Positions 13,247-51,339 of a DNA stretch of 51,339 bases are shown in pieces. Both the position numbers and the translations under genes were made by a program. The notes under the pieces were generated by a model. It did not search any database. It was not told the DNA's origin and saw only the letters and a program-made list of their open reading frames with translations. Each line of letters starts with the position of its first letter. The stretch's first letter is position 1. The stretch comes from an uncultured Caryophanales bacterium (GTDB lineage: Bacteria > Bacillota_I > Bacilli_A > RFN20 > CAG-826): assembly GCA_947164155.1 (NCBI GenBank), contig CAMUVS010000006.1, forward strand, positions 1 through 51,339, read 5' to 3'.

Positions 13247-13945
13247 TTATCTTGAGAAAGGCATACCTAATAATTCTAATAAGGTATACGCTTCTTTATC
13301 AGTTTTAGCGGTAGTAACGACAACAACGTCCATACCTCTAACTTTTGAAACTTTATCGTAGTCAATTTCTGGGAAAATTAATTGTTCTTTGACACCTAAG
13401 GTGTAATTACCACGACCGTCAAAGGCGTTTTTAGATACACCACGGAAGTCACGAACACGAGGGAGAGCGATTGACACTAATTTGTCAAAGAAGTCCCACA
13501 TTCTAATTCCTCTAAGAGTGACTTTACAGCCAATGGCTTGGCCTTCTCTTAATTTGAAGCTAGCGATGGATTTCTTAGCTTTAGTGATCACAGGTTTTTG
13601 ACCAGTGATTTGAGTAAGTTCAGCGACAGCTTCTTCAAGTCGTTTGGCATCTTGAGTGGCATCACCAACACCGATGTTCACAACGATTTTATCTAAACCA
13701 GGAATTTCCATGACACTGGAGTATTTATATTGCTCCATAAGAGCTTTTTTCACTTCAGTTTCATATCTAACTTGTAATCTATTGACTACAGCGGCCTTTT
13801 TATTTCCGGTTTTAGCCTTTGGGGCTTTAGGAGCAGCTTTAGGTGCTTCTACTTTTGCTTCTGCAGGTTTTTCCGCTTTTGGTGCAGCAGGTTTTTTTGC
13901 TGTACTTGCTGGCTTTTTGGCTGCAGGTTTATTAGCTTCTGCCAT
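13247..13945 (-). CDS. rplE: 50S ribosomal protein L5 with Lys/Ala/Pro-rich N-terminal extension
   Basis: L5 core from [11 protein letters not shown]; preceded by ~54 aa K/A/P-rich sequence. Confidence 0.95.
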
Positions 13946-13959
13946 ATTTAGCTACCTCC

Positions 13960-14265
13960 TTATAATTCAGTGCCGCTAGCTTTAGCGACTCTGACTTTCT
14001 TTCCTTTAACAACCTTATGGCCAACTCTAGTTGGTTTTTTGGTTTTTGGATCAACAAGCATGACGTTAGAAGCATCAATTGGAGCGTAAATCTCGACGAT
14101 ACTTCCTTCTGGAGTTTGTTGAGTTGGTTTTTTGTGTTTCTTACGGAGATTGACACCTTCGACAACCACACGGTTAGTTTTTGGATCAACCTTTTGGATT
14201 GTTCCAGTCTTTCCCTTGTCTTTGCCAGAGATGACAATGACTTTATCACCTTTTAATAATTTCAT
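13960..14265 (-). CDS. rplX: 50S ribosomal protein L24
   Basis: KOW motif [18 protein letters not shown]; operon position. Confidence 0.96.
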
Positions 14266-14278
14266 TGTTTACTCCTCC

Positions 14279-14656
14279 TTATAACACTTCTGGAGCAAGG
14301 GAGAGGATTTTCATAAATCCATCAATACCCTTCTCTCTTAACTCACGGGCCACAGGTCCAAAGACACGTGTTCCGACTGGGGCATTATCATCGTTAATGA
14401 TAACAACTGCGTTATCATCAAAGGCGATGGTGCTGCCGTCAGCTCTTTGAGTTGGTTTTTTACATCTCACGATGACGCATCTGACAATGTCACCTTTTTT
14501 CACTTTTCCATTTGGAATAGCTTCTTTAACGGAACATTGGATGATATCACCGATATAAGATGTTTTTCTTTTACTTCCTCCGTAGAGGGTGAAAGCGCGA
14601 ACTTTACGAGCGCCACTATTATCAGCGACAACAAGATTTGTTTCCTTCTGGATCAT
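14279..14656 (-). CDS. rplN: 50S ribosomal protein L14
   Basis: Sequence and operon position. Confidence 0.96.
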
Positions 14657-14658
14657 AA

Positions 14659-15054
14659 TTATTCGGCCTCCTTTTCTTCTTTAGCTGGTTCTGCTTCTTC
14701 AACTTTCTCTGCTGCAGGTTTCTCTTCGACTTCTTCAGCAGGAATTTCACCAGTAAGAATTTCTTCTTTTAATTCTTTTTCTGCCTCTTTAACAGACATT
14801 TCGGCAGTCTTATCGATTGAGACTAATCTCCATCTTTTGGTAGCGGAGAGTTTTCTAGTTTCCATGATGGTCACGACATCTCCAACTTTAGCCTCATTCT
14901 TTTCATCGTGCGCGTAATACTTCTTTCTATATTTAACGCGCTTGCCATACTTAGCGTGTTTTTTGTGAGTTTCAACAAGGACACCGATGGTCTTGTCGTT
15001 TTTATCACTAACAACTACGCCTTGAATGGAACGTCTTAAGTTTCTTTCTTCCAT
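14659..15054 (-). CDS. rpsQ: 30S ribosomal protein S17 with acidic C-terminal extension
   Basis: S17 core then [43 protein letters not shown]. Confidence 0.95.
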
Positions 15055-15068
15055 TTTTAACGATCTCC

Positions 15069-15269
15069 TTATTTAGATTCATTTAATTCTCTTTCACGTA
15101 ACACCATGTTTACGCGGGCGATATCTTTTCTCACGCCAATGACTTCTTCTCCTCTTTCAAGAGTTCCGACAGCTTTTTTACGTCTTAACTCGAAGAGTTG
15201 TTCTTTTAATGAGTAGAGCTTTTCTTTAAGTTCACTCGTAGACATTTCACGGACTTCACTAATTTTCAT
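15069..15269 (-). CDS. rpmC: 50S ribosomal protein L29
   Basis: Sequence and operon position. Confidence 0.95.
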
Positions 15270-15274
15270 TGCTA

Positions 15275-15685
15275 CTACTCTCCTTTTCCGACAACTTTAC
15301 ATTTGATTGGGAGTTTATAAGCAGCAAGTCTAAGAGCTTCTCTTGCGACTTCGGCTTCAACGCCACCAATTTCAAACATTACTTGTCCTTGTTTAACTAC
15401 TGCGACCCAGTCTTCTGGAGATCCTTTACCAGATCCCATACGAACTTCGGCAGGTTTCTTTGTTTTTGCTAAGTGAGGGAAAATTCTAATCCAAATTTGT
15501 CCTCCACGTTTGGTATATCTAGATAATACAATACGGGCAGCTTCGATTTGTCTTGTGGTAATCCAAGCACCTTCAAGGGCTTGTAAACCAAATTCACCAA
15601 AGCTGATTTCTGTACCGCCTTTTGCGTGTCCTTCATATTTAATAATATGTGGACGACGATATTTCACTCTGTTTGGTTGTAACAT
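15275..15685 (-). CDS. rplP: 50S ribosomal protein L16
   Basis: Sequence and operon position. Confidence 0.96.
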
Positions 15686-15688
15686 CTC

Positions 15689-16360
15689 TTACTCTCCCTT
15701 CTCGCTTTTCTTAAGTTCTGGGCGGATTTCTCCTCTACAGATCCAGACCTTAACACCTAAGCGGCCATATTGAGTAGCTGCTTCACTGACTGCGTAATCG
15801 ATATCACTTCTAAGGGTGTGTAGAGGAATAACTCCTTCTTTATAGCCTTCGCTTCTAGCGATATCAGCACCACCAAGTCTACCAGAGACCATGGTTCTAC
15901 ATCCTTTAGCGCCAGCTTTTCTCACTCTTTGAATAGCTTTCTTTTGCACAGTTCTGAAGCTTGCTCTTTCTTCTAATTGTTTTGCAATTGTTTGGGCAAC
16001 GATTGTCGCATCTAAGTCAGGATTCTTGACTTCCACTACGTCCACGCGCACGCTCTTATTTTTAATTAATTTAGCGAGTGCTTCTTTTAAGGCTAAGATG
16101 TTTTTACCATCTTGACCAATAACAACACCTGGACGAGCAACGAATGTTTTGACGACAACACTAGTGCCTTTATCTGTTTTGGTTCTTTCGATTTCAACAT
16201 GAGATAATAATGCTTCTTTTAAAGAACTTGCGAGATATTTACGAATTTTAACGTCTTCATTTAAGTAGACAGGGTATTCTTTGTCTTCGGCGAACCAACG
16301 AGAATTCCAATCCTTGTTGACACCGATACGCATACCTACTGGATTAACTTTTTGACCCAT
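15689..16360 (-). CDS. rpsC: 30S ribosomal protein S3
   Basis: KH domain; MGQKVNPVGMRIGV start; operon position. Confidence 0.97.
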   Translation of the reverse strand: MGQKVNPVGMRIGVNKDWNSRWFAEDKEYPVYLNEDVKIRKYLASSLKEALLSHVEIERTKTDKGTSVVVKTFVARPGVVIGQDGKNILALKEALAKLIKNKSVRVDVVEVKNPDLDATIVAQTIAKQLEERASFRTVQKKAIQRVRKAGAKGCRTMVSGRLGGADIARSEGYKEGVIPLHTLRSDIDYAVSEAATQYGRLGVKVWICRGEIRPELKKSEKGE

Positions 16361-16373
16361 TGTATCTATCTCC

Positions 16374-16856
16374 TTATCTCATTTTGACCACCACAGTAAT
16401 GTGGCAGCATCTTTTCACTAAACCAGAAGCGGAACCTTTTGCTCTTGGTAAGTATCTTCTCATTTTTAAGCCATCATTAGCATAGATTTCTTTGACATAT
16501 AATTTGTCTTCATCCATACCGAAGTTATTGATAGCATTTGCCGCAGCGGACTTAATTACTTTAGTAACTGGTTCACATGCTGCACGGTTGATGTTTCTTA
16601 ATAAACCTAAGGCAACTTTGACATCCTTACCTCTCACTTGGTCGATGACTAAGCGAGCTTTTCTAGGAGTTAAGCGAACGTTTGTCGCGGTCGCTCTTGC
16701 TTCTGTTGGCATTGGCTTTTTAGGAGCTTCAACCTTCTTATCTTCTTTTTTAGCCTTTTTGGCTTTAGGAGCTTCTTCTACTGGAGCAACTTCTTTGACT
16801 TCTGCTTCGGCTTTTTTGCTTGCCTTCTTAGCAGGGGCTTTCTTTGTTTCTGCCAT
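16374..16856 (-). CDS. rplV: 50S ribosomal protein L22 with N-terminal low-complexity extension
   Basis: L22 core from EARATATNVRLTPRKARLV; preceded by ~50 aa K/A/E/P-rich. Confidence 0.95.
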   Translation of the reverse strand: MAETKKAPAKKASKKAEAEVKEVAPVEEAPKAKKAKKEDKKVEAPKKPMPTEARATATNVRLTPRKARLVIDQVRGKDVKVALGLLRNINRAACEPVTKVIKSAAANAINNFGMDEDKLYVKEIYANDGLKMRRYLPRAKGSASGLVKRCCHITVVVKMR

Positions 16857-16871
16857 TATTAGAACCTCCTA

Positions 16872-17165
16872 TTATTTACCAGCCGCAGCTGCTTTATCTT
16901 CAGCAGTGTGGCCTGTATGACCGGTGTATTTTCTGGTTGGAGAGAATTCACCGAGTTTATGTCCTACCATATCATCTGTGACGTAAACGGAGATGTGTTC
17001 TTTTCCGTTATAGACCGCGAAGGTGTGTCCGACGAATGATGGGTAGATTGTAGAACGGCGGGACCATGTCTTAATGACTTCTTTTTTGCCAGCAGCATTT
17101 AAAGCTTCGACTTTTTTCATTAAGTGTTCATCACAGAATGCGCCTTTTTTCAAACTTCTTGCCAT
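16872..17165 (-). CDS. rpsS: 30S ribosomal protein S19
   Basis: Sequence and operon position. Confidence 0.96.
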
Positions 17166-17178
17166 TTGCGTTTACCTC

Positions 17179-18012
17179 CTATTTCGCGTTACGTCTACGA
17201 ATAATTAATTTAGTAGACTTTTTCTTATTATTTCTGGTCTTAACACCCATTGCACGTTTACCCCAAGGAGTTCTTGGTGCATCACGTCCAACTGGACATT
17301 TACCTTCACCACCACCATGTGGGTGATCGTTAGGGTTCATAACGGAACCTCTAACTGTTGGTCTAGTACCGTACCATCTGGTTTTACCAGCTTTACCAAG
17401 ATTGATTAAGTTCCAATCTTCGTTACCAACGGTACCAACTGTCGCTCTACAAGTTGCGAGAACTTTTCTCATTTCTCCACTTGCGAGTCTAAGCATGACA
17501 TATTTGCCTTCGCTACCGAGGACTTGAGCAGCCGCTCCAGCAGCACGACATAATTGTCCGCCTTTTCCTGGAACTAATTCGACGTTATGGACGAATGTAC
17601 CTTCAGGAATGTTCTTTAATGTAAGGGCATTACCGGTTTTAATATCAGCGGTTTCCCCAGATATGATTTTATCCCCGACTTTGAGATCTTTAGGTGCTAA
17701 GATGTATCTCTTTTCACCATCTAAGTAAGCGACTAAGCAGATGTTAGCGTTACGGTTTGGATCGTACTCAACAGTCTTTACAACAGCAGGGATATTGTCC
17801 TTATTACGTTTGAAGTCAATTACACGATATTTACGTTTGTGACCTCCACCAATGTGACGGCAGGTAATAACGCCTTGGTTATTTCTTCCGCCAGATTTGG
17901 ATAAGCTGACTAATAAACTTTTTTCAGGAGTGCTTGTTGTAATTTCTTCGAATGTCGAGTTTGTCATGTTTCGTCTACTTGCAGAAGTAGGCTTGTAAGT
18001 TCTAATTGACAT
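17179..18012 (-). CDS. rplB: 50S ribosomal protein L2
   Basis: Sequence incl. [23 protein letters not shown]. Confidence 0.97.
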
Positions 18013-39762: not shown

Positions 39763-40689
39763 TTACTTAATAGAAGCTAAGAATTGATCAATTTCTTCTT
39801 CGCTAGGAGCGACATTGATTGCTCCTTTTTTAAGAGTGGCAAGTCCTCCAACTACATTTGCTCTAGTAAGATAATGAATAATTTCTTTATCACAATTAAT
39901 AAATTCAGGGTGATTAACTAAAGACGCTAAGAAATATGAATAAAAAGCATCTCCCGCTCCAGTTGTATCAACTGGTTTAACTTTATAAGTAGGAACTTCT
40001 ACTACATGACCATTATGATAATAAATTGAGCCTTTAGAACCTAATGTTATGACTGCAATTTGATTTTCATTTAATAAAGTTTTTAAACCTTTAACTAAAT
40101 CTTTTTCTTTGGTTAATAATTCAACTTCTTCAATAGAAAACTTTAAAATATCTGCCTCTTTTAATGCTTTAATAAATATTTCCTTAGCCTCGGCTTCACT
40201 GTTAAAGATGTCGTCACGATAATTAATATCAAAAGATATTTTAGCGTTAGTTTCTTTTTTAATTCTCTTTACTAGTTCAAAGAAGAATTCTCTACCTTCT
40301 TTTTCTGATAGCATTAATGAACCGATATGAATAATGTCGTCATCTTTAATATCCTTAAAGTTAATTGAATTAATATCAAAGATATAATCCGCTCCAAAAG
40401 AGCGATCAAATTTAAATGATCTTTCTCCATTATCTAGACTAACAATCGCTTTAGAAGTATATCGGTCAGTTAAAACTTTAATATCTAAATATTTAAAAGG
40501 TTTACCTTTCGCGGTATTTAATAACAAATCTCCATCTTCGTCTTTACCAACAGTGCCAATAAAGCCAACGTCTTTGGTATATAAAAGAGCATTACACGCA
40601 ACATTAAAAGGCGCTCCACCAGGTAAAGTGGTTTTAGACTCACCATCTTTAAAGATGTCCACTAAGATTTCACCAATTGAAATAAGCAT
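39763..40689 (-). CDS. scrK: Fructokinase (PfkB family)
   Basis: PGGAPFNVACNAL, DTTGAGDAFYSYF; adjacent to GH32 genes. Confidence 0.85.
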   Translation of the reverse strand: MLISIGEILVDIFKDGESKTTLPGGAPFNVACNALLYTKDVGFIGTVGKDEDGDLLLNTAKGKPFKYLDIKVLTDRYTSKAIVSLDNGERSFKFDRSFGADYIFDINSINFKDIKDDDIIHIGSLMLSEKEGREFFFELVKRIKKETNAKISFDINYRDDIFNSEAEAKEIFIKALKEADILKFSIEEVELLTKEKDLVKGLKTLLNENQIAVITLGSKGSIYYHNGHVVEVPTYKVKPVDTTGAGDAFYSYFLASLVNHPEFINCDKEIIHYLTRANVVGGLATLKKGAINVAPSEEEIDQFLASIK

Positions 40690-40745: not shown

Positions 40746-42980
40746 TTATTTTTGTTTTTTCTTCTTAAGGACGAAGAACAACATTAAGGTAAGAGTCACA
40801 GCAGCACCTACGATAATAATAATGTAGAGGTTGCTACCAGCAGCGCTGTCAAATAGAAGCACTGCTAAGCTATTACTATAAGCATTGACAGAAATGTGAT
40901 TAAGTTCACCTAAATATTGAATGGTGTGTCCTAAGTTATAATGTGAATTACCATCAAAGATAGTTGGGTCAATGTTATACCATTCACCAGAACCAATTCT
41001 TTGGAAGTCGTCAGAGTAACATACGATTTGTTGGGCACCTTCAGATAAAGCGTTATATGCGTTTAAGAAAGCCTTAACTTCGTCAGATGTAAGAACGTCA
41101 CAAACGTTGCTTCCAAGTTCTCCGCCTCTAACACTTTCAATATATTGTTTCCAAACAGTGTGTGCAGCATAGGAATCGGATTCATCAACGTGATCAAGGA
41201 TTCTGTGTTCACCATCGGTATTAACGGAGTTACCTGCGTTATAAATAACACCATATTGGTTACCATCACTCTTACAAGTGGAGTTGATATAAATATCAGG
41301 ATAAGTGATATAGTATGTGCCGTTTGTGTTGGTTTGAACTGCAACATCAACGTGATATTCAGGTCTAGCAGCGTAATTCACGGTTAATTCATCAAAGTAA
41401 CAAGCAGACCAATCGGAATAATCATAGTCACAAATCGCTAATTGAATAGTTCTTCCTAAATAAGCTTCTAAGTTGATAACGTGATAGACCATAGCTGTGG
41501 TATTAAATCCACTATCAGCCATATTCCATGTATTTCCAGACATATTGAATGCTTTATTATCAATCCAAGCTAAGTCAGCGGATTGGGTATCGGTGTTCTT
41601 TTGCGTTGCATCAATAACGTGTAAGGAAGCTTTACCAGCCATCTTAATGCTGATAATGCCTGTACCACTTAAAACAAATGGACGAGAAATGAAACGATAT
41701 CTTAAACCATCAGAGGCAACAAAACCACCTTCGCCTAAACCTTGGTACCATCCTCTGAAGAATCCGCCTTCATTATTGAATGGCATTTCTCCATCACCAG
41801 GACGAACTGAGAATGTAGAGATTGCTTGATCGAAATGTTTTTCTGGTCCATAGTCACCATTAAAGAAGTTATGATCGAAATACCAGTGATTTACAAAACT
41901 TTCATTTGTACTGAATGAATCGCTAATGTCACTAACGGTAGCAAAGAACACTTCTTTTTGAGATTCATTTTCAAAATATGTGTTTTGAATTTCTCTTCTT
42001 TTATTAACTTCCCATTCACGAGAATCAGTTGATAAATGATTTAAGAAATATCTCATTGCATCGCTTGTGGAGCTAAGGGTTTGGTTAACGTGAAGATAAC
42101 CAAAGTTAGCGAAGCCGTAGTCCTCAGTTGCAGGATCTACAACTTCAACATACATATCAAAATCGTCAGCTTCAGCAGTTAATTCTGCAAATTTATCATC
42201 AGGGACTTTGAAATAACGTAAAGTCATTGGGTTTTCAACAAATGTGTTGTTATAGAAATCAGCGGAATATGGTCCATAATGGAAAACAAGATGCGTGTGG
42301 CCATTTGGATGTTTATCACCAAAATCTTTAGCAGCACCTAATTGGAAGTAAACATATTGAGTACTTTGTTTCCATGTTCTAGAAGTTAATGTTCCAGTCC
42401 AGCCTTCACCGGTTTCACCGCGATAGAAAGGACTTAATGCTTCAAAGTAATAGTTATCACCCCAGAATCTTGCATCTACACTAGCGATAGAACCAGCAGC
42501 ATCTGTCCAGTTAGTGAAGAATGATGCTCTCATAGGAATATATGTGTCATATCCTGCGGCATAGGAATACCAGCCATCATTATGGACGTAAACTTTTCCG
42601 TTATATCTTTCAACATTAGTCCAAGAATTGATAGGCTCTTGTTGGCTTATCCAGGTTTCACCATCAAGAAGTTGGAATTGCATTACACCAACGCCGTCAT
42701 ATAAATCGGTATATGTACAACTATATAAGTCGTATCCACCATATGATTGTTGCAATTTTGTCATAGTTGATGACTGCCAATTTTCAGCATCACCTTGTAG
42801 CTTGACATTCAACTTAACTGTGTAAGAGCCGACAACTTCAGATGGAACCGCATAATAGACAGTTGTTTCAGTTGCGGCTTCAGTTACTTTAGCTTTTTCT
42901 TGATGTGCGCTAACGGCGACACCAACTCCTAAAACAGCAGTAGCTAAACCCGCGAATAAAATATTTTTAAGTTTTTTCAT
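40746..42980 (-). CDS. Secreted, C-terminally membrane-anchored surface protein with carbohydrate-binding-like modules
   Basis: Signal peptide MKKLKNILFAGLATAVLGVGVAVSA; C-terminal LYIIIIVGAAVTLTLMLFFVLKKKKQK; ATG at 42980 preceded by AGGAGGG. Confidence 0.75.
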   Translation of the reverse strand: MKKLKNILFAGLATAVLGVGVAVSAHQEKAKVTEAATETTVYYAVPSEVVGSYTVKLNVKLQGDAENWQSSTMTKLQQSYGGYDLYSCTYTDLYDGVGVMQFQLLDGETWISQQEPINSWTNVERYNGKVYVHNDGWYSYAAGYDTYIPMRASFFTNWTDAAGSIASVDARFWGDNYYFEALSPFYRGETGEGWTGTLTSRTWKQSTQYVYFQLGAAKDFGDKHPNGHTHLVFHYGPYSADFYNNTFVENPMTLRYFKVPDDKFAELTAEADDFDMYVEVVDPATEDYGFANFGYLHVNQTLSSTSDAMRYFLNHLSTDSREWEVNKRREIQNTYFENESQKEVFFATVSDISDSFSTNESFVNHWYFDHNFFNGDYGPEKHFDQAISTFSVRPGDGEMPFNNEGGFFRGWYQGLGEGGFVASDGLRYRFISRPFVLSGTGIISIKMAGKASLHVIDATQKNTDTQSADLAWIDNKAFNMSGNTWNMADSGFNTTAMVYHVINLEAYLGRTIQLAICDYDYSDWSACYFDELTVNYAARPEYHVDVAVQTNTNGTYYITYPDIYINSTCKSDGNQYGVIYNAGNSVNTDGEHRILDHVDESDSYAAHTVWKQYIESVRGGELGSNVCDVLTSDEVKAFLNAYNALSEGAQQIVCYSDDFQRIGSGEWYNIDPTIFDGNSHYNLGHTIQYLGELNHISVNAYSNSLAVLLFDSAAGSNLYIIIIVGAAVTLTLMLFFVLKKKKQK

Positions 42981-42995
42981 GAGTTTCCCTCCTTG

Positions 42996-43009
42996 TGGAA
43001 ACGTTTCCA
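42996..43009. promoter_or_regulatory. Perfect 14-bp palindrome TGGAAACGTTTCCA: LacI/CcpA-type operator upstream of the surface protein
   Basis: Palindrome with central CG, just upstream of the Shine-Dalgarno sequence. Confidence 0.75.
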
Positions 43010-43059
43010 TAGATATTGTACATATAATGTACTATACTTTTTGCTTAAAAACAAAGCAT

Positions 43060-44394
43060 TTATTTGTAAAGGCTGAGCCTATTACAACCAGATTCAGTTT
43101 TTAGAGTGAATTTATCACTCTTTTCGCTTGGATAAATTGTATTACTCATTGATAGTCCATTAACAAACACTTCAATTGAGTATTTATCTAAAACAATATA
43201 GATTTTTGTGTGTTCTAACTTTCTATAAGGCATAATTCTTATGCCTTTTTTAGAATATTCGTCGACTTCCGCTCCAGTGATGGTTTCGCCCGATTCACTC
43301 CTATCGAAGTAGATTTTGTCATCTTTTAAATATAATTTAGTGGACTCTTTTGTCCCTTTCCTAAATTCGAAAGAAAAAGTTTTTAAATTTTCGATATCTA
43401 ATTCAATAGTGCCTACGCTTAACTCGCCTTCATATTCTTTTTTAAATGATTCTTCTAATACTTTTTGTCCATAAATGATTGGAGTCTGAAGCATTAAATT
43501 ATCTTCTACATAGACTTTTCTAGGAACAGTTAACATACCAGCAAAACCATATTTAGAACTTGGAATATTTCGATCCCACATATTAAGCCAGGCAATTAAT
43601 ATATGTTCCTTATCCATAATTTGAGGCGCATAAAAATCAAAACCATAGTCTATTAAGGTTTTTTTAGAACTTGGAATAAATTTATAGTCTTTATTAAACG
43701 CCCCTAATTCATATTCACAAGAATGAATATTTAAGCAGTGATTATTATCACTAGGGAAATTTTGTTCACAGTATATTAATAATCCTAAATCTTCATGATA
43801 GTCTGCGCATTCAATCATCTCACCTTCAGATTTATGAGTTAAGACATCACTTACAAATTTCCACTTCTTTAAATCTTGAGATTTATATAGAACAATTGCC
43901 CCTCCATTATTCACTCTTCTAGTGGCCACTAATAAATAGTAAAAGCCATCTTTATAAAAGAGTTTAGGATCTCTAAAATCACAAGGCTTATATTCTTTTG
44001 GCAAATCTTTGCCAGTAATAATTGCTCCGTGTTTAGTGAAATGAACTCCATCTTTAGAAGAGGCTAAACATTGGATTTGTTGTATTTTTTCTGGATCTTC
44101 GTTATTGATAAATCCTGTGTAGACAATATATAAAGTATCGCCCACTACGAGGCTAGTCCCGGAAAAACAGCCATCTTTATCAAATTCATCTCCTGGAGTT
44201 AAAGCATAAGGCAAATACTTCCAGTGTATTAAATCATCACTAACAACATGCCCCCAATGCATTGGTCCCCACTCACAAGAATATGGATGGTGTTGGAAAA
44301 AGACATGGTATTGTCCTAAAAATTTAACAACACCATTAGGGTCATTAATCCAGCCCTTTTCTCCAGTAATATGAAATATCGGTTTATTATTCAT
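43060..44394 (-). CDS. GH32 beta-fructofuranosidase / sucrose-6-phosphate hydrolase (no signal peptide)
   Basis: GWINDPNG, FRDPKLF, EMIECADYHEDLG; GH32 catalytic motifs. Confidence 0.92.
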   Translation of the reverse strand: MNNKPIFHITGEKGWINDPNGVVKFLGQYHVFFQHHPYSCEWGPMHWGHVVSDDLIHWKYLPYALTPGDEFDKDGCFSGTSLVVGDTLYIVYTGFINNEDPEKIQQIQCLASSKDGVHFTKHGAIITGKDLPKEYKPCDFRDPKLFYKDGFYYLLVATRRVNNGGAIVLYKSQDLKKWKFVSDVLTHKSEGEMIECADYHEDLGLLIYCEQNFPSDNNHCLNIHSCEYELGAFNKDYKFIPSSKKTLIDYGFDFYAPQIMDKEHILIAWLNMWDRNIPSSKYGFAGMLTVPRKVYVEDNLMLQTPIIYGQKVLEESFKKEYEGELSVGTIELDIENLKTFSFEFRKGTKESTKLYLKDDKIYFDRSESGETITGAEVDEYSKKGIRIMPYRKLEHTKIYIVLDKYSIEVFVNGLSMSNTIYPSEKSDKFTLKTESGCNRLSLYK

Positions 44395-46873
44395 TTGTGA
44401 CCTTTTCTGCTAAAACGTAATTAGATGGGATATCACTACTAGATTCATAGTAAGTAATAAAATCATCAGCGAATAATAATCCCCAATCATTAGTCGCATT
44501 ATCGACAATTCTAATTTGAATGTGACGACCAATAAATTCGCTTAAATCAACTTTATATTCCGCCATATTAGCCGCGTAGAAGCCGTCTAAAGCTAAATCT
44601 TTTGGATAGCCTTGATAATAATAAGATTTAGTGATTTCTTTAAATCTTTGATTATAAGTAGTCGCTAAAACATCGCCTGTATCCGCATCAACAAATTCGA
44701 TGTGACATACTTCTTTATTTTTACCTCCACCTAAGCGATAAGTGACAAATCCACTTCCGCCTAAAGTAAATGAACTAGAAGTTAATGTACCAACACTTTC
44801 TTCTCCAGTAACCCATCCGTTTAAGAAGTAAGAGCCTTGTTTATTATATAAGAAGCATTCGTGCCACCAAGTATAATCTCTAGAAATCCCTAAAATAGGA
44901 TCTCCGTCTATTACCCAGCCACTCATATCACCAGTTTCAAAGGTGCCATTAGTGACTTGATATTCGGAAACGCTTTCTTTATATGCTAAAGCGTTTGGAT
45001 TTAATAAAGCTGATGAATCAATCGCGCTCATGCTCTCATAATAAGTAATAAAGCTATCAACACACACTAATCCCCAATTACTAGTAGCCTTATCTACGAC
45101 TTGAATTTTCACATCTTTACCTAATAAAGAAGTTAAATCTGCTTTATAGAAGATCATATTCATTAAGTTTTCTCCATGTCCCACTCTTTCGGTTTCATCG
45201 TCAAGATCATTGAACATAAAGTTTGTAAATCTTAATAATTCTTCATTAGTTATAGCGTCAATAATAGAAACATAAACGCTTAATGGGTCTCTTGCGCCTG
45301 ACATTCTAAATGTCATATAGCCCACTCCACCAACTTTAAAGCTACTTGAAGTTAATGTACCTGTACCGGCTTCATTATTTTCTCCAGAGAAGAAATAAGT
45401 ACCACGTTTATTAAATGTTAATCTAGGATTATTCCACCAATAGGATTTAGAAGAAATTACACCGATATCAGTCTCATTAGTGGACTCCAAAGTCCAACCA
45501 GATAAATCACCAGTTTCAAAAGTTCCGTTCACTGGTTGATATTCGTTAATTGGTTCTCTTTCATAAGTCGAAGCAATATCAATCTTGTAATATTCTTTAT
45601 CTTCCCAATATGGTGTATCTAAATAGAATGTTTCAAAACTATCAAAAGTCATACATCCTAATTCATCTAGGCTTGTGTTATTATCAACGATTTCGATATA
45701 TAAACTTTCTCCAACATATTCACCTAAATCAATATAATATTGGACCATATTTAATAGGTGCATCTTCATTGGAATAAATGGGAATTGTTCATTTTTATAT
45801 TGAACGTTAGAAACTTTAGCGACTTCAATAGGCTCTCCCCCATTAACCGCCATAAAGCGGATATAAGTTAAAGCTTGTTCCTGGCAGCCTCCTAACTTAA
45901 AGGAAATAAATCCTTTCCCACCTAATTCAAATATCGATGAGCGGAGAACACCTGTCGCACTTGGTTTATAGTGACCGTAATGATATTTACCGTCTTTATT
46001 ATAGGTAATATATTCGTTCCACCAGCCATTTTCGACGTTTACTCCTTCGTTAGAGAAAGCTTCTCCTTCAACAACTGTCCAGCCACCTAAAGAGCCAATT
46101 TCGAAATCAGGGTTCTTGATATGATATTTATCAATTGCTTCTACATCATCTATATATTCACGCGATTTTGTGTAGTAAGCACCTTCAGTTTGTGCACCTA
46201 CATAACCAACACGAATATCATCAACACTTAAATAGCCATAATAAACATCTTTATCGTTATCAACAATACGAACATAGACTTCTTGATTAGCGTATTCCTC
46301 TAAATCAATCGTATATTCATAGAAATTATCGGTGTTGTAATAGTTATTGTTATATTTACTTGCTTCAACATATTCTGTATGTTGCTTAAAGAATTTATTT
46401 GTTTGTTTAGCAATCATTTGATCGCTAGAGGCTAAATAAACTCCAAAATAACAAATTTCTTGTTCGTTTTTAAGTGGAGAATCATCATATTTATCTTTTC
46501 TAGTGGCCCCACCAGCTAGTTTCACTGTAATTAAACCATCATTATCTAAATAGAAATTATTACTTCTAATAGAGCCCACTCTAGCGTGAGAGTACGCTAA
46601 ATCATAACCTTGACCAGATAAATACCAGTTTCCAGTCTTTTTAATATCGAGTCTATTGTGTTCAGTATCATCATCAAAGGTAAAATAGGTTCTAGAAGAC
46701 ACTGAATCATCAGTGTAGGCATCACCATATTCCACAGTCCATCCACTTAAATCAGAGGTTTCAAATCCTCCGTTTAATACAGAATGGTTAATAACTTTAG
46801 AACTAGACGAGCCACATCCAACTAAAGGAATAGCAAATAAGCTAATAAATAAAGATTTAATATATTTATTCAT
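44387..46873 (-). CDS. Lipoprotein with four tandem carbohydrate-binding-like modules
   Basis: Lipobox LVGC; four repeats starting (N/G)GxFETxDLSGW.. and ending VDLxEFIGxxIxIRIVDNxTxxWGLxxxDxFxTYY. Confidence 0.85.
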   Translation of the reverse strand: MNKYIKSLFISLFAIPLVGCGSSSSKVINHSVLNGGFETSDLSGWTVEYGDAYTDDSVSSRTYFTFDDDTEHNRLDIKKTGNWYLSGQGYDLAYSHARVGSIRSNNFYLDNDGLITVKLAGGATRKDKYDDSPLKNEQEICYFGVYLASSDQMIAKQTNKFFKQHTEYVEASKYNNNYYNTDNFYEYTIDLEEYANQEVYVRIVDNDKDVYYGYLSVDDIRVGYVGAQTEGAYYTKSREYIDDVEAIDKYHIKNPDFEIGSLGGWTVVEGEAFSNEGVNVENGWWNEYITYNKDGKYHYGHYKPSATGVLRSSIFELGGKGFISFKLGGCQEQALTYIRFMAVNGGEPIEVAKVSNVQYKNEQFPFIPMKMHLLNMVQYYIDLGEYVGESLYIEIVDNNTSLDELGCMTFDSFETFYLDTPYWEDKEYYKIDIASTYEREPINEYQPVNGTFETGDLSGWTLESTNETDIGVISSKSYWWNNPRLTFNKRGTYFFSGENNEAGTGTLTSSSFKVGGVGYMTFRMSGARDPLSVYVSIIDAITNEELLRFTNFMFNDLDDETERVGHGENLMNMIFYKADLTSLLGKDVKIQVVDKATSNWGLVCVDSFITYYESMSAIDSSALLNPNALAYKESVSEYQVTNGTFETGDMSGWVIDGDPILGISRDYTWWHECFLYNKQGSYFLNGWVTGEESVGTLTSSSFTLGGSGFVTYRLGGGKNKEVCHIEFVDADTGDVLATTYNQRFKEITKSYYYQGYPKDLALDGFYAANMAEYKVDLSEFIGRHIQIRIVDNATNDWGLLFADDFITYYESSSDIPSNYVLAEKVTNE
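44390..46780 (-). repeat. Four tandem ~190-215 aa protein repeats (approx. 46780-46131, 46130-45544, 45543-44964, 44963-44390)
   Basis: Aligned by eye: GGFETSDLSGW / NPDFEIGSLGGW / NGTFETGDLSGW / NGTFETGDMSGW. Confidence 0.85.
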
Positions 46874-46885
46874 ACTCATAGCCTC

Positions 46886-49426
46886 CTAGTTATAATCCGC
46901 TAAATTGCCAACGTTACCGTAATAAGCAGGTTCTACTTCATCTTTAAAGCAGCCTTTCATTTGGGTAACCTTGAATTTAGTAATAGACATATTGCCACCA
47001 TTATCGAATAAGGAAATATAATCACTATCTCCATATTTTGGATAAATACGAGTGGTAATGGTCTCAATATCATTAATGTAAATTTCTAACATTGAACGAT
47101 CGACTAAAATACGAACGTTAAATTCTTTTGTGTCTACTGGTAAATGCCATGTATCAGATGTATCGATATAGTCAATGGTTGTCGATAATAAACGGTCGAC
47201 AAAGACTTTGTCAGTGTTATCTGTATAGGCAGTCTTTTCAAATTTAATGGCCGTTCTTTCTGTACCCATATAGTTATCATTTGGATTATATCTCACGTAA
47301 ATTCCACTAATATAGTTATCTGTTGGATTTAAGGAGAAAGTCGCTTCAATTTGATACATATCGCTTCTCACATTTTTAAGTTCTTCAGCAAGTTCAGAAG
47401 CAGATTTACCACTACCTTCATATTCAAATAAGGTTTCTTTATATAAACTATCAATAGCCTTTACTGGTCTTCTAATAACATCTCTTCCATTTGGGGCTAA
47501 GAAGATTTCTACTGGCATCGCGAAATTATGCGCCCAGCCCGCAATCTTATTTTGATTTGTACCAGCGGATTTTCCTTGGGCAATCGCATAAATCACTGTG
47601 TGCCCATCTTCATAATTTGAGATACCCGCTGCTCTTTCTTCATCAGTTAAATAAGTAAATCCAGTTTGACCAGTCCAAATGCCCTTGCCATGGTCAAATA
47701 ATCTTGGTTTAGGATCATCAGGAATAAATCTACATGTATCTTTATTAAATGTACCAATCCAGTAATATGTATCAACAACATATCCAGAAACTGTATATTG
47801 AGGAGAATCCATAAAGATATATTTAGTCACACTCTTATCTTCAGTAGAAATAGGAAGCATGACGCAACATTCCCAGTGCTTTCCTTGCTCTGGATAATCT
47901 TGATAGCTCACTTCAAAAGTGAAACCTTTATATTCCCAGTTTCTCATATCAGTAGATCTATACATATTAGTAGATCCACCGTGAGATTGATCCCAGTCAG
48001 CAGCAACAGAAGTTGACACCATCATGTAATAATACGGAGCATCATACCAAATAAATGGATCTCTAAATTCTTCTATCTTTCCTTGAGACCAGTCACTTGG
48101 TTGCACCAAAGTATTAACATCTTCAACATACCAATCGGTTAAATATGGATCGGTTGGATCTACAGGATGAACATAACACACTGATTGATGTGAGAATGTT
48201 GATGTTTCTTCATAATCTGCATAGTTAGTTCCAGCAGTGATTGTTAACCAAGGGACCCCGTCTGGTCCAATAACTGAACCACCCGTCCATGCTCCTTCTG
48301 GGCAAGCTGGCTTAGTAGGAGCAACAGCGTCTTTAACATAACGCCAGTGAATCATATCTGGAGAACAAATATGCGCCCATCTAATTTGAGACCAATAAGG
48401 TCCAATTGGGTTATGTTGATAAAAGACGTGATACATACCCTTATAATAAATTGGGGCGTGAGGTTCATTCATCCACACTGCAGGAGGGATCGCATGATAT
48501 TGTGGTCTAAATCTATCTCCATCATAGACACTACTATCAAGTTGAACTTCGCTAAATGGTAAAGTAGGAACTTTGCCGTTAATAGAGTAACGCGAAAATA
48601 AATAATTCATTTGTTTTGGGGTCATAGACTCATGATATATTTCTGCTTCATCCACTAATGCAGAAGGCATTTGTCTAGGAACACCAAATTCGTAAATGGT
48701 AGAACAATAATAACCAAAATATAAAGGTTTCGCACTAGCAACAATCTCTGTATTTTCTAAATCAGGAATTAAAGATTCATAAGCGACTTGACCGTTAAAA
48801 GTTAAACAAATATAACCTTTGTCTCCATCAAAAGTTGCAGAAATATGACTCCATTCATATAAAGGTAAAGCGTTAAGTGGGTCATAATATCCAACGAATA
48901 CTTTTTGACCAGTAGTCTTATTTCTTAAATTCATTTGTAAACCCCATAAACCGAGTCTACCATAGCCAAATAAGAATCCTTCTTCAGCTTCCATATGACC
49001 CCAGTTAAATAGGGAAGTCATTCTTGGATGACCCCGAGCAATAGTCTCGTTACCGTATCTATTTAAATTTTCAAAGCCGCGTGGAGCAACCCAAGTAGAG
49101 AATGTAATTTTATTAGTAGGACCAGTATAATCACTCATTTCAATGCGAGTAGAAAAACCGTCCATATATAACGATTTACCAGAGACACCTTGTTTTTGAA
49201 GTGGATCATTAGGTTTTTTAAATAATGATTCCTCGTTTTCTTTAGCGAAAACATAATCGATATAACGATCTTTTTTCGCTCCTGAGTCTCTTGTGTAACT
49301 ATCTTTAGTGCTTTCAAAAGAGAAACTCACCACCGCAGTAGTTTCTTTATCTACTGCACTAGAACAGCCTCCGAGAGTTAATGAACAAATATAAGCAAAT
49401 AAAGGTAACAAATTTCTTTTTCTCAT
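46886..49426 (-). CDS. GH32 lipoprotein (extracellular levanase/inulinase-like) with N-terminal LamG-like domain
   Basis: Lipobox LTLGGC; LamG-like N-terminus; GH32 WMNEPHAP, FRDPFIW, HWECCVM. Confidence 0.88.
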   Translation of the reverse strand: MRKRNLLPLFAYICSLTLGGCSSAVDKETTAVVSFSFESTKDSYTRDSGAKKDRYIDYVFAKENEESLFKKPNDPLQKQGVSGKSLYMDGFSTRIEMSDYTGPTNKITFSTWVAPRGFENLNRYGNETIARGHPRMTSLFNWGHMEAEEGFLFGYGRLGLWGLQMNLRNKTTGQKVFVGYYDPLNALPLYEWSHISATFDGDKGYICLTFNGQVAYESLIPDLENTEIVASAKPLYFGYYCSTIYEFGVPRQMPSALVDEAEIYHESMTPKQMNYLFSRYSINGKVPTLPFSEVQLDSSVYDGDRFRPQYHAIPPAVWMNEPHAPIYYKGMYHVFYQHNPIGPYWSQIRWAHICSPDMIHWRYVKDAVAPTKPACPEGAWTGGSVIGPDGVPWLTITAGTNYADYEETSTFSHQSVCYVHPVDPTDPYLTDWYVEDVNTLVQPSDWSQGKIEEFRDPFIWYDAPYYYMMVSTSVAADWDQSHGGSTNMYRSTDMRNWEYKGFTFEVSYQDYPEQGKHWECCVMLPISTEDKSVTKYIFMDSPQYTVSGYVVDTYYWIGTFNKDTCRFIPDDPKPRLFDHGKGIWTGQTGFTYLTDEERAAGISNYEDGHTVIYAIAQGKSAGTNQNKIAGWAHNFAMPVEIFLAPNGRDVIRRPVKAIDSLYKETLFEYEGSGKSASELAEELKNVRSDMYQIEATFSLNPTDNYISGIYVRYNPNDNYMGTERTAIKFEKTAYTDNTDKVFVDRLLSTTIDYIDTSDTWHLPVDTKEFNVRILVDRSMLEIYINDIETITTRIYPKYGDSDYISLFDNGGNMSITKFKVTQMKGCFKDEVEPAYYGNVGNLADYN

Positions 49427-49441
49427 ATTTAATTGTCCTTT

Positions 49442-50365
49442 CTACATCTTAAGTCCAGCAGTGCCAAATCCTTTGACGATATATTTCTGCGCTGCGACAT
49501 ATAATATAAATATTGGTAAAGTTGTAATCACTAACGCTGCCATAACTTGACCAGTGGTAATCCCGTCAGAGCTAGTAATAATATTGACCGCGTATTGAAT
49601 TGGATATAACGGCCAACCCGAGGTTCCTCTATTATCCACAACTAAGCTTGGCCACACATAATCGTTCCACACACCAATAAAGGTGAAAACTGCAGTAGTC
49701 GCCACAATTGGTTTAGATAATGGAAGAATTAAATTAAAGAACATTCTTACTCTACCCGCTCCATCAATATGCATTGCTTCTTCATATTCTTTAGGAATCG
49801 AAGAGAAGAACTGGGTATATAAGAAGATATTAAAGACGGAAATAATACTTGGTATCACTATCGCGATTATCGAGAAGAATCCTTTATTTAGATGTAATAA
49901 ATCCTGAACGATAGATAAAAGCGGAATAATACTTGTTTCTACTGGGACAACCATTAAGAAAATAATGATAAAACTAAAGAATCCTTTAGCAGGGAAATGG
50001 AATTTTGCTAATACATATCCCGCTAATCCATTAACTAAGGTATTTAAAACAATAACAACTAAACAATAAATTAAACTATTAATCGCATAAGTCCAAATGT
50101 GGTATCTTTCGCCAAACACCACCGCATAGTTATCGAAAAATACACTTAGATTAGTGAAATCAGGGATAAACATTAAGAAGGTTCCATTAGAGGTTGCAAC
50201 CGCAGCTTCACTCTTAGTGGAAGCGGCAAGCATATATAAAAGAGGAAGAATGAATAATAAAGATAAAGCTGTACCAGTTAGATAATAAATAACTGAATAA
50301 ACAATCTTTTTCTTCGATTTTTTAGAGCGAACAAAATTAGGATCATTAAGATATCTCTTTTTCAT
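49442..50365 (-). CDS. Carbohydrate ABC transporter permease (MalG-like)
   Basis: EEAMHIDGAGRVRMFFNLILPLSKP EAA loop; ATG at 50365 overlapping upstream stop. Confidence 0.9.
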   Translation of the reverse strand: MKKRYLNDPNFVRSKKSKKKIVYSVIYYLTGTALSLLFILPLLYMLAASTKSEAAVATSNGTFLMFIPDFTNLSVFFDNYAVVFGERYHIWTYAINSLIYCLVVIVLNTLVNGLAGYVLAKFHFPAKGFFSFIIIFLMVVPVETSIIPLLSIVQDLLHLNKGFFSIIAIVIPSIISVFNIFLYTQFFSSIPKEYEEAMHIDGAGRVRMFFNLILPLSKPIVATTAVFTFIGVWNDYVWPSLVVDNRGTSGWPLYPIQYAVNIITSSDGITTGQVMAALVITTLPIFILYVAAQKYIVKGFGTAGLKM

Positions 50366-51339
50366 TATTTCTTCTTCTCCTTTAGAAGTTGCCTTTGTAA
50401 GAAGGTAATAGAGCCTATGACAATAGTCATAAGTAACGCCACCGCACACGATAATCCCACATTACCGTATTTTTGGCCTTGGTTATACATATATAAACTT
50501 AAAGTGACACTACCAGGATAAACGCCTTGATCTAATAACATTGGTTGAATTAAAACACGACACGCTCCAATAAAAACAGTAATCAAAACAAATAACATTG
50601 TTGGTCTAAGTCCTGGAATAGTGACTGTTTTAAATCTTTGGAATGCATTAGCCCCATCCACTCTAGCGGCCTCATATAAATCTTTTCTAATATTTCCTAA
50701 AGCAGAAAGGAATATTAACATTTGATAGCCACATCCTTGCCAGGCAGAAATGGCAATCATCCAGCCTAAAATCTTATCGGTTCCTAAGAAATCTTGATTA
50801 GGGATTCCAAAATTAGCGAGGATAGAATTCATAATGCCATCCGGTCGATTAGCTAATACTTCCCTCCAGAAGAAAGCAGTAACTGATAAAGAAACCGCAA
50901 CTGGAGCAAAGAAACATACTTTAAAGATTGTTGTTCCTCTTCTTTTATTATTCACAAATAAAGCTAAACCTAAGGCTAAACCAATTTGAATTGGGACGAC
51001 AAAGACCACGAAGATTGCGGTATTTTTTATCGCATGATAGAAATCACCTTTAATTTGGAATTCACTTATTAAATCTCTAAAGTTACCAAATCCATCTCCA
51101 CCAGCAAGGCTAATGTTATTTGGATCACCAAGCGTGTAATTTGTAAAAGAAAAACCTAAAGAAGTAATAATCGGTAATAGCACTAAAAAGAACGCTAATA
51201 CCACACTAGGAGCAAGTAAAATGAAGGCCATAATTACTTCACCCTTATGGTATTTATAATGCGACTTTCTATTCTTTATAAAGTCTTTGATGAAAATAGC
51301 CAAGAAAATGACTATAAATGCAGCAAAAACATAAAGAGC
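50365..51339 (-). CDS. Carbohydrate ABC transporter permease (MalF-like), 5' end open at the window edge
   Basis: YEAARVDGANAFQRFKTVTIPGLRP EAA loop; reading frame remains open to the last base. Confidence 0.88.
   Translation of the reverse strand, partial: ALYVFAAFIVIFLAIFIKDFIKNRKSHYKYHKGEVIMAFILLAPSVVLAFFLVLLPIITSLGFSFTNYTLGDPNNISLAGGDGFGNFRDLISEFQIKGDFYHAIKNTAIFVVFVVPIQIGLALGLALFVNNKRRGTTIFKVCFFAPVAVSLSVTAFFWREVLANRPDGIMNSILANFGIPNQDFLGTDKILGWMIAISAWQGCGYQMLIFLSALGNIRKDLYEAARVDGANAFQRFKTVTIPGLRPTMLFVLITVFIGACRVLIQPMLLDQGVYPGSVTLSLYMYNQGQKYGNVGLSCAVALLMTIVIGSITFLQRQLLKEKKK

Follow-up and report, generated by a model that had tools for sequence, protein, structure and literature searches.

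The gene at positions 46886-49426 (minus strand) of the window, i.e., the whole 51,339-nt stretch of DNA analyzed here, probably encodes a catalytically competent, surface-anchored, retaining GH32 endo-fructanase in which Glu321 would serve as the nucleophile, and the substrate is probably of the inulin (beta-2,1) type. Sequence comparison, structure prediction and gene order are the basis of this reading. The Glu is shared by a conserved bacterial-archaeal clade, and several of the active-site positions that have changed along with it are also changed in the fungal endo-inulinase INU2 of Aspergillus ficuum.

The 846-aa translation product begins with a signal peptide that ends in a lipobox (...SLTLGGC, Cys21; 49364-49426, minus strand, as are all features given below), read directly from the sequence, and with an LGGC lipobox at its N-terminus the protein is a predicted surface lipoprotein. 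A LamG/concanavalin-like domain covers residues 95-272 (48611-49144; Pfam PF13385, E 7.7e-6), with a score slightly below the curated cut-off, whereas the LamG domains of homologues score well above it. Membership in GH32 is seen from sequence matches to both parts of the fold, the N-terminal catalytic five-bladed propeller (47468-48496; PF00251, E 2.5e-45) and the C-terminal beta-sandwich (46964-47395; PF08244, E 8e-21). NCBIfam matches to sucrose-6-phosphate hydrolase and beta-fructosidase are all sub-threshold. An AlphaFold2 model of the full-length protein is poor (pLDDT 54.7), but that of the GH32 part alone has a pLDDT of 81 and a pTM of 0.85. A Foldseek search with the GH32 model returned GH32 structures throughout, with E values down to 5e-31, including INU2 (3sc7) and levan fructotransferase; the ranks of these structures are too close together to separate specificities.

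The peptide AVWMNEPHAP is the translation of positions 48452-48481, and the codon at 48464-48466, TTC on the plus strand, reads GAA on the coding strand. The first-pass annotation had placed a Glu, residue 321 of the ORF, where GH32 enzymes have their nucleophile Asp, and this is what the alignments show: in PDB phmmer alignments WMNEPHAP pairs with WMNDPNGP of chicory 1-FEH and of Arabidopsis invertase, and Glu321 aligns with INU2 Glu43. A nucleophile elsewhere in the protein was considered and rejected, as Glu321 falls on the nucleophile Asp of characterized GH32 enzymes in the PDB alignments. The next residue but one is His323 (48458-48460), giving NEPH and not NDPN, and it is constant in the Glu clade. 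The acid/base region and the FRDP motif, which the same annotation listed as retained, are both present. Asp456 of the RDP motif (48059-48061), the transition-state stabilizer, aligns with INU2 Asp176, and Glu519 of HWEC (47870-47872), the acid/base catalyst, aligns with INU2 Glu233. The acidic triad of GH32 (W-x-N-D/E-P, RDP and EC) is thus complete as Glu321, Asp456 and Glu519, and WMNEPHAP contains the Glu within WMNEP that is the motif of endo-inulinases (EC 3.2.1.7).

Glu at this position is not new chemistry, as it already occupies the nucleophile position in INU2 and in a bacterial endo-inulinase. In INU2 it is Glu43 within YWMNEPNG (PMC5245892), the PDB entry 3rwk reads WMNEPNG, and Glu is present in 60 of 61 fungal endo-inulinase models (PMC6042768). 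In the endo-inulinase EnIA of Arthrobacter sp. S37 the replacements E323A and E519A lower kcat and leave Km unchanged, and D460A is inactive (reviewed in PMC5984348, where the motif string is garbled, WMNDEPNGL, so that the residues after Glu-Pro are uncertain). EnIA (GH32, about 812 aa) is an endo enzyme with a long extension ahead of the GH32 domain, as in the window protein, and its triad Glu323/Asp460/Glu519 is numbered almost identically; this likeness in architecture and residue numbering is a lead and no proof of homology. Altered chemistry, as had been suggested for the substitution, is therefore not needed: fungal endo-inulinases have Glu there as a rule, and in a bacterial one it has been mutagenized. 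It had also been proposed that the idea of an unusual motif would fall if WMNEPHAP were the norm in a well-characterized hydrolase subfamily; that holds largely for WMNE but not for the exact string, and a literature search for MNEPH returned insect names only.

Two other kinds of enzyme combine the GH32 fold with non-exo action, but with Asp where the window protein has Glu321: endo-levanase BT1760 (Asp41) and levan fructotransferase (Asp54, as inferred from the D54N mutants in the titles of PDB 4ffh and 4ffi). Levan fructotransferase, a group that the first-pass annotation wanted included in a phylogenetic placement, is a poor match, and this identity was rejected on the Asp at the nucleophile position. 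Inulin is favored over levan as substrate because the known Glu enzymes, INU2 and EnIA, are endo-inulinases and BT1760 and levan fructotransferase use Asp, a preference for which these four characterized enzymes are a small basis.

The Glu is kept in all 20 orthologs fetched, which come from MAGs of ruminant-gut Bacilli and Clostridia, and the triad is kept in every one of them whose sequence extends that far. Among 97 aligned GH32 domains the nucleophile column has Glu in 36 rows, Asp in 60 and one truncation, with no third residue; it should be noted that the queries used to retrieve relatives were the window protein and its profile, which makes Glu rows over-represented, and the counts carry no information on the frequency of Glu across GH32 at large. 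The positions of Asp456 and Glu519 are invariant in all rows, including the 36 Glu-type domains. Sequencing error as a source of Glu321 was rejected, since two near-identical MAGs (L004 and L007, 98%) and all 20 orthologs have Glu. Pseudogene decay was likewise rejected, with Glu found in all 36 clade members recovered and Asp456 and Glu519 intact. In some Glu-type rows the RDP motif has become RDC or RDA (EFRDCH and EFRDAN in L028 and L031/L032), with the Asp kept.

In a maximum-likelihood tree of the 97 domains all Glu rows lie on one side of a single branch (support 100/98), which bears out the divergent GH32 subgroup that had been proposed. Clade members are from Bacilli (including the family of the window), Clostridia, Catenovulum, haloarchaeal plasmids (Haloterrigena, Natrinema) and large Paenibacillus-like genomes, the last so called by resemblance only. 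A His follows Glu-Pro (or Glu-Ala/Ser) in 36/36 Glu rows and in 0/60 Asp rows, and the third residue past the acid/base Glu is Val, Cys or Ile in Glu rows vs Asp, Asn, Glu, Gly or Ser in Asp rows. Both companion changes mark the bacterial-archaeal clade and not Glu as such, because INU2 has neither. When 392 genomes of the phylum were scanned for WMNEP, with only the codons written in the pattern counted, nine had it, all of the window's own family. No relatives of the Glu-type GH32 were found in the viral contigs searched. The plasmid proteins of Haloterrigena turkmenica and Natrinema resemble the window protein in LamG-GH32 architecture and in NEPHAP, with about 31% of residues identical across 94% of the protein, and have ABC transporter and sugar kinase genes nearby, as in the window, although the host is archaeal. 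On H. turkmenica plasmid pHTUR01 (L064) positions 13419-17633 encode a single 1421-aa chain with two GH32 domains, one Glu-type (NEPHGP) and one Asp-type (NDPNG); a further, separate Glu-type enzyme and a sugar kinase are encoded nearby.

To compare the clade with INU2, the letters of PDB chain 3rwk_X were used as the INU2 row (located with a fungal query sequence, 338/339 residues identical), and a second tree was built from the bacterial-archaeal set, INU2 and four other solved GH32 enzymes. The bacterial-archaeal Glu clade holds together in this tree (100/99), and INU2 is placed outside it, among Asp-type enzymes. A single Glu clade that includes INU2 is rejected when forced (AU p = 1.3e-4). 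INU2 is a fairly long and compositionally unusual row, and its placement is good but not final. By these trees, INU2 and the window clade would be similar in function at most and would belong to different Glu lineages, a conclusion that is likewise good but not final.

Signature columns were defined as those conserved in >=85% of Asp-type rows, a threshold set after the alignment had been seen. The Glu clade departs from the Asp-type residue at six of these columns: 321 (D to E), 323 (N to H), 520 (C to L/M), 585 (Y to T), 586 (A to G) and 615 (W to I). INU2 differs from the Asp-type residue at five of the six (321, 520, 585, 586 and 615) vs 4/31 of the other columns (Fisher p 0.0016), and six Asp-type controls depart at 0/6. 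At other thresholds the association gives p 0.006 (0.80) and p 0.0015 to 0.0016 (0.85 and 0.90). In the window protein itself position 520, which is among the five changed in parallel, is still Cys; this counts against the reading, as does the fact that endo action is possible without Glu, BT1760 using Asp41. Endo action is proposed for the clade mainly because INU2 and the clade have changed in parallel at the same positions. A Trp at 619, aligned with exo-inulinase Trp335 (numbered from the PDB chain), is also replaced. Trp residues including Trp335 narrow the exo-inulinase pocket, and a wider pocket has been linked to endo action (PMC6560043); loss of Trp at both 615 and 619 would fit such a pocket.

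The endo-specific residues reported for INU2, T100, G196, V234 and D298 (PMC6042768), correspond to T381, V474, C520 and T585 of the window protein. There is one match (Thr), and at 585 the Tyr of exo enzymes has turned into a different residue. INU2 (3rwk, 3sc7) and the window protein have in common the GH32 fold, the Glu, the departures at 585, 586 and 615 and the Thr at 381. They differ in NEPN and EVPD of INU2 vs NEPH and ECCV here, and the 42 residues ahead of the INU2 Glu leave no room for a LamG domain. The chances seem about even that Asp to Glu arose at least twice in GH32, in fungal endo-inulinases and in the bacterial-archaeal clade, and that on both occasions the same four other active-site positions changed with it. 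If so, the clade would be a so far unrecognized subfamily of GH32, and its endo signature would be predictable.

The surrounding genes are those of a fructan locus. Two ABC sugar transporter permeases, of the MalF/UgpA type (50365-51303) and the MalG/UgpE type (49442-50449), precede the Glu-type gene. It is followed by a lipoprotein of four FETGDLSGW modules (44387-46879; BLASTP and repeat count), a cytosolic Asp-type, ScrB-like GH32 (43060-44394; Pfam, with NCBIfam scrB_fam below cut-off), which has the canonical WINDPNG described in the first-pass annotation, a secreted protein of 754 aa with a C-terminal membrane anchor (40746-43010; weak Gram_pos_anchor match and locus position) and a PfkB-family sugar kinase, probably a fructokinase (39763-40689; PF00294, E 1.9e-40). 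The 754-aa protein, whose gene lies between those of the cytosolic GH32 and kinase, has no Pfam family above threshold and is possibly a further fructan-binding protein. The presence of lipobox, importer, binding repeats, cytosolic GH32 and kinase in one locus argues for the endo-fructanase reading.

The window contig stops inside this locus, the remainder of which lies at the end of contig C17. In the close relative G168 the order is an Asp-type GH32 (1204 aa), a LacI regulator, a solute-binding protein, two permeases and the Glu-type GH32, then the four-module lipoprotein, the ScrB-like GH32, the anchored protein and the PfkB kinase. The third GH32 of the window's genome (G000:C17:1998-5609; L002, L114) is 1204 aa long, reads WTNDPNAL and ECIG, and lies on this separate contig; contigs C6 and C17 probably adjoin, because its G168 counterpart lies just upstream of the same operon. 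A similar gene order is found in Clostridia (L018). A complete fructan locus of surface endo enzyme, binding protein and importer may thus be shared among some uncultured Bacilli and Clostridia of the rumen.

The four-module lipoprotein is similar to the N-terminal modules of the Glu-type GH32 in genome G613 (BLASTP 5e-82, 34-39% identity), and the FETGDLSGW motif also occurs in G459 and G695. In the cycloinulooligosaccharide fructanotransferase (CFTase) of Paenibacillus macerans, residues 32-389 are a CBM38, a module that consists of two sandwiches and binds both inulin and levan (PMC10076258). Since the modules hold the same position in Glu-type GH32 proteins as CBM38 does in this CFTase, the window's neighbor may be a CBM38-like fructan-binding lipoprotein. 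CFTase, known here by description, has CBM38 fused to GH32, and modules of the neighbor's type are likewise fused to Glu-type GH32 domains in the Paenibacillus-like genomes; in the window they form a separate protein.

The most likely mechanism is the retaining double displacement of other GH32 enzymes, in which Glu321 would attack fructose C2, Asp456 would stabilize the transition state and Glu519 would act as acid/base. Fructan chains would be cut internally at the cell surface, with the chain held by the neighboring repeat lipoprotein; the oligosaccharides would enter through the ABC importer, and their breakdown would be completed by the cytosolic Asp-type GH32 and the PfkB kinase.

Transfer in place of hydrolysis had been suggested by the first-pass annotation, and there is a small chance that the protein is an endo-acting fructan transferase, for example a CFTase, which makes cyclic or transferred oligosaccharides in place of hydrolysis. 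The CBM38 of the P. macerans enzyme and the secreted homologues of the same clade with modules like those of the window's neighbor (1493 aa in G459, 2097 aa in G613 and 2119 aa in G695) are in keeping with this; however these large, putatively CFTase-like homologues read NEAH or NESH and not NEPH and are on a branch separate from the window protein, whose own chain begins with LamG, the modules being encoded in the next gene and not at the N-terminus of the same chain as in CFTase. Forage grasses contain levan-type fructans, and grass fructan is a likely substrate in the ruminant gut. The origin of the orthologs in ruminant-gut MAGs, together with the binding of levan by CBM38 (PMC10076258), would therefore suit an endo-levanase that uses Glu by the same mechanism on beta-2,6 linkages, but this is improbable given that the levan-active non-exo enzymes with a known nucleophile use Asp and the known Glu enzymes are inulinases. 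Very improbable is a degenerate GH32 of low activity kept as a fructan-binding protein, as had been proposed earlier: in its favor are the substitution of the nucleophile and two altered motif residues by the acid/base (ECPD to ECCV), but across phyla there is no variation in the triad or in most of the pocket, and EnIA and INU2 are catalytically active with Glu.

If the protein is an endo-fructanase, an apparent active-site defect becomes a usable marker. General sequence annotation does not separate endo-acting from Asp-type exo GH32 enzymes, and a group of the former may be recognizable among the many of the latter by Glu together with small residues at 585, 586 and 615. The kind of enzyme is already known; what is new and useful is that the changes run in parallel, which provides a testable endo signature.

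The large secreted Glu-type proteins of G695, G613 and G459 (L094, L107 and L108) have CBM38-like modules, and two of the three also carry SLH anchors. All three have the Pro after Glu replaced (NEAH or NESH). Their 760-aa neighbors read NEPHAP and have no obvious signal peptide, and each pair is possibly a CFTase with an intracellular opener of its cyclic products. An adjacent ORF in G613 (L110:1-1026) has NAWVGDVIPYY in a GH32-like context, which resembles GFVGDPMP of the endo-levanase BT1760.
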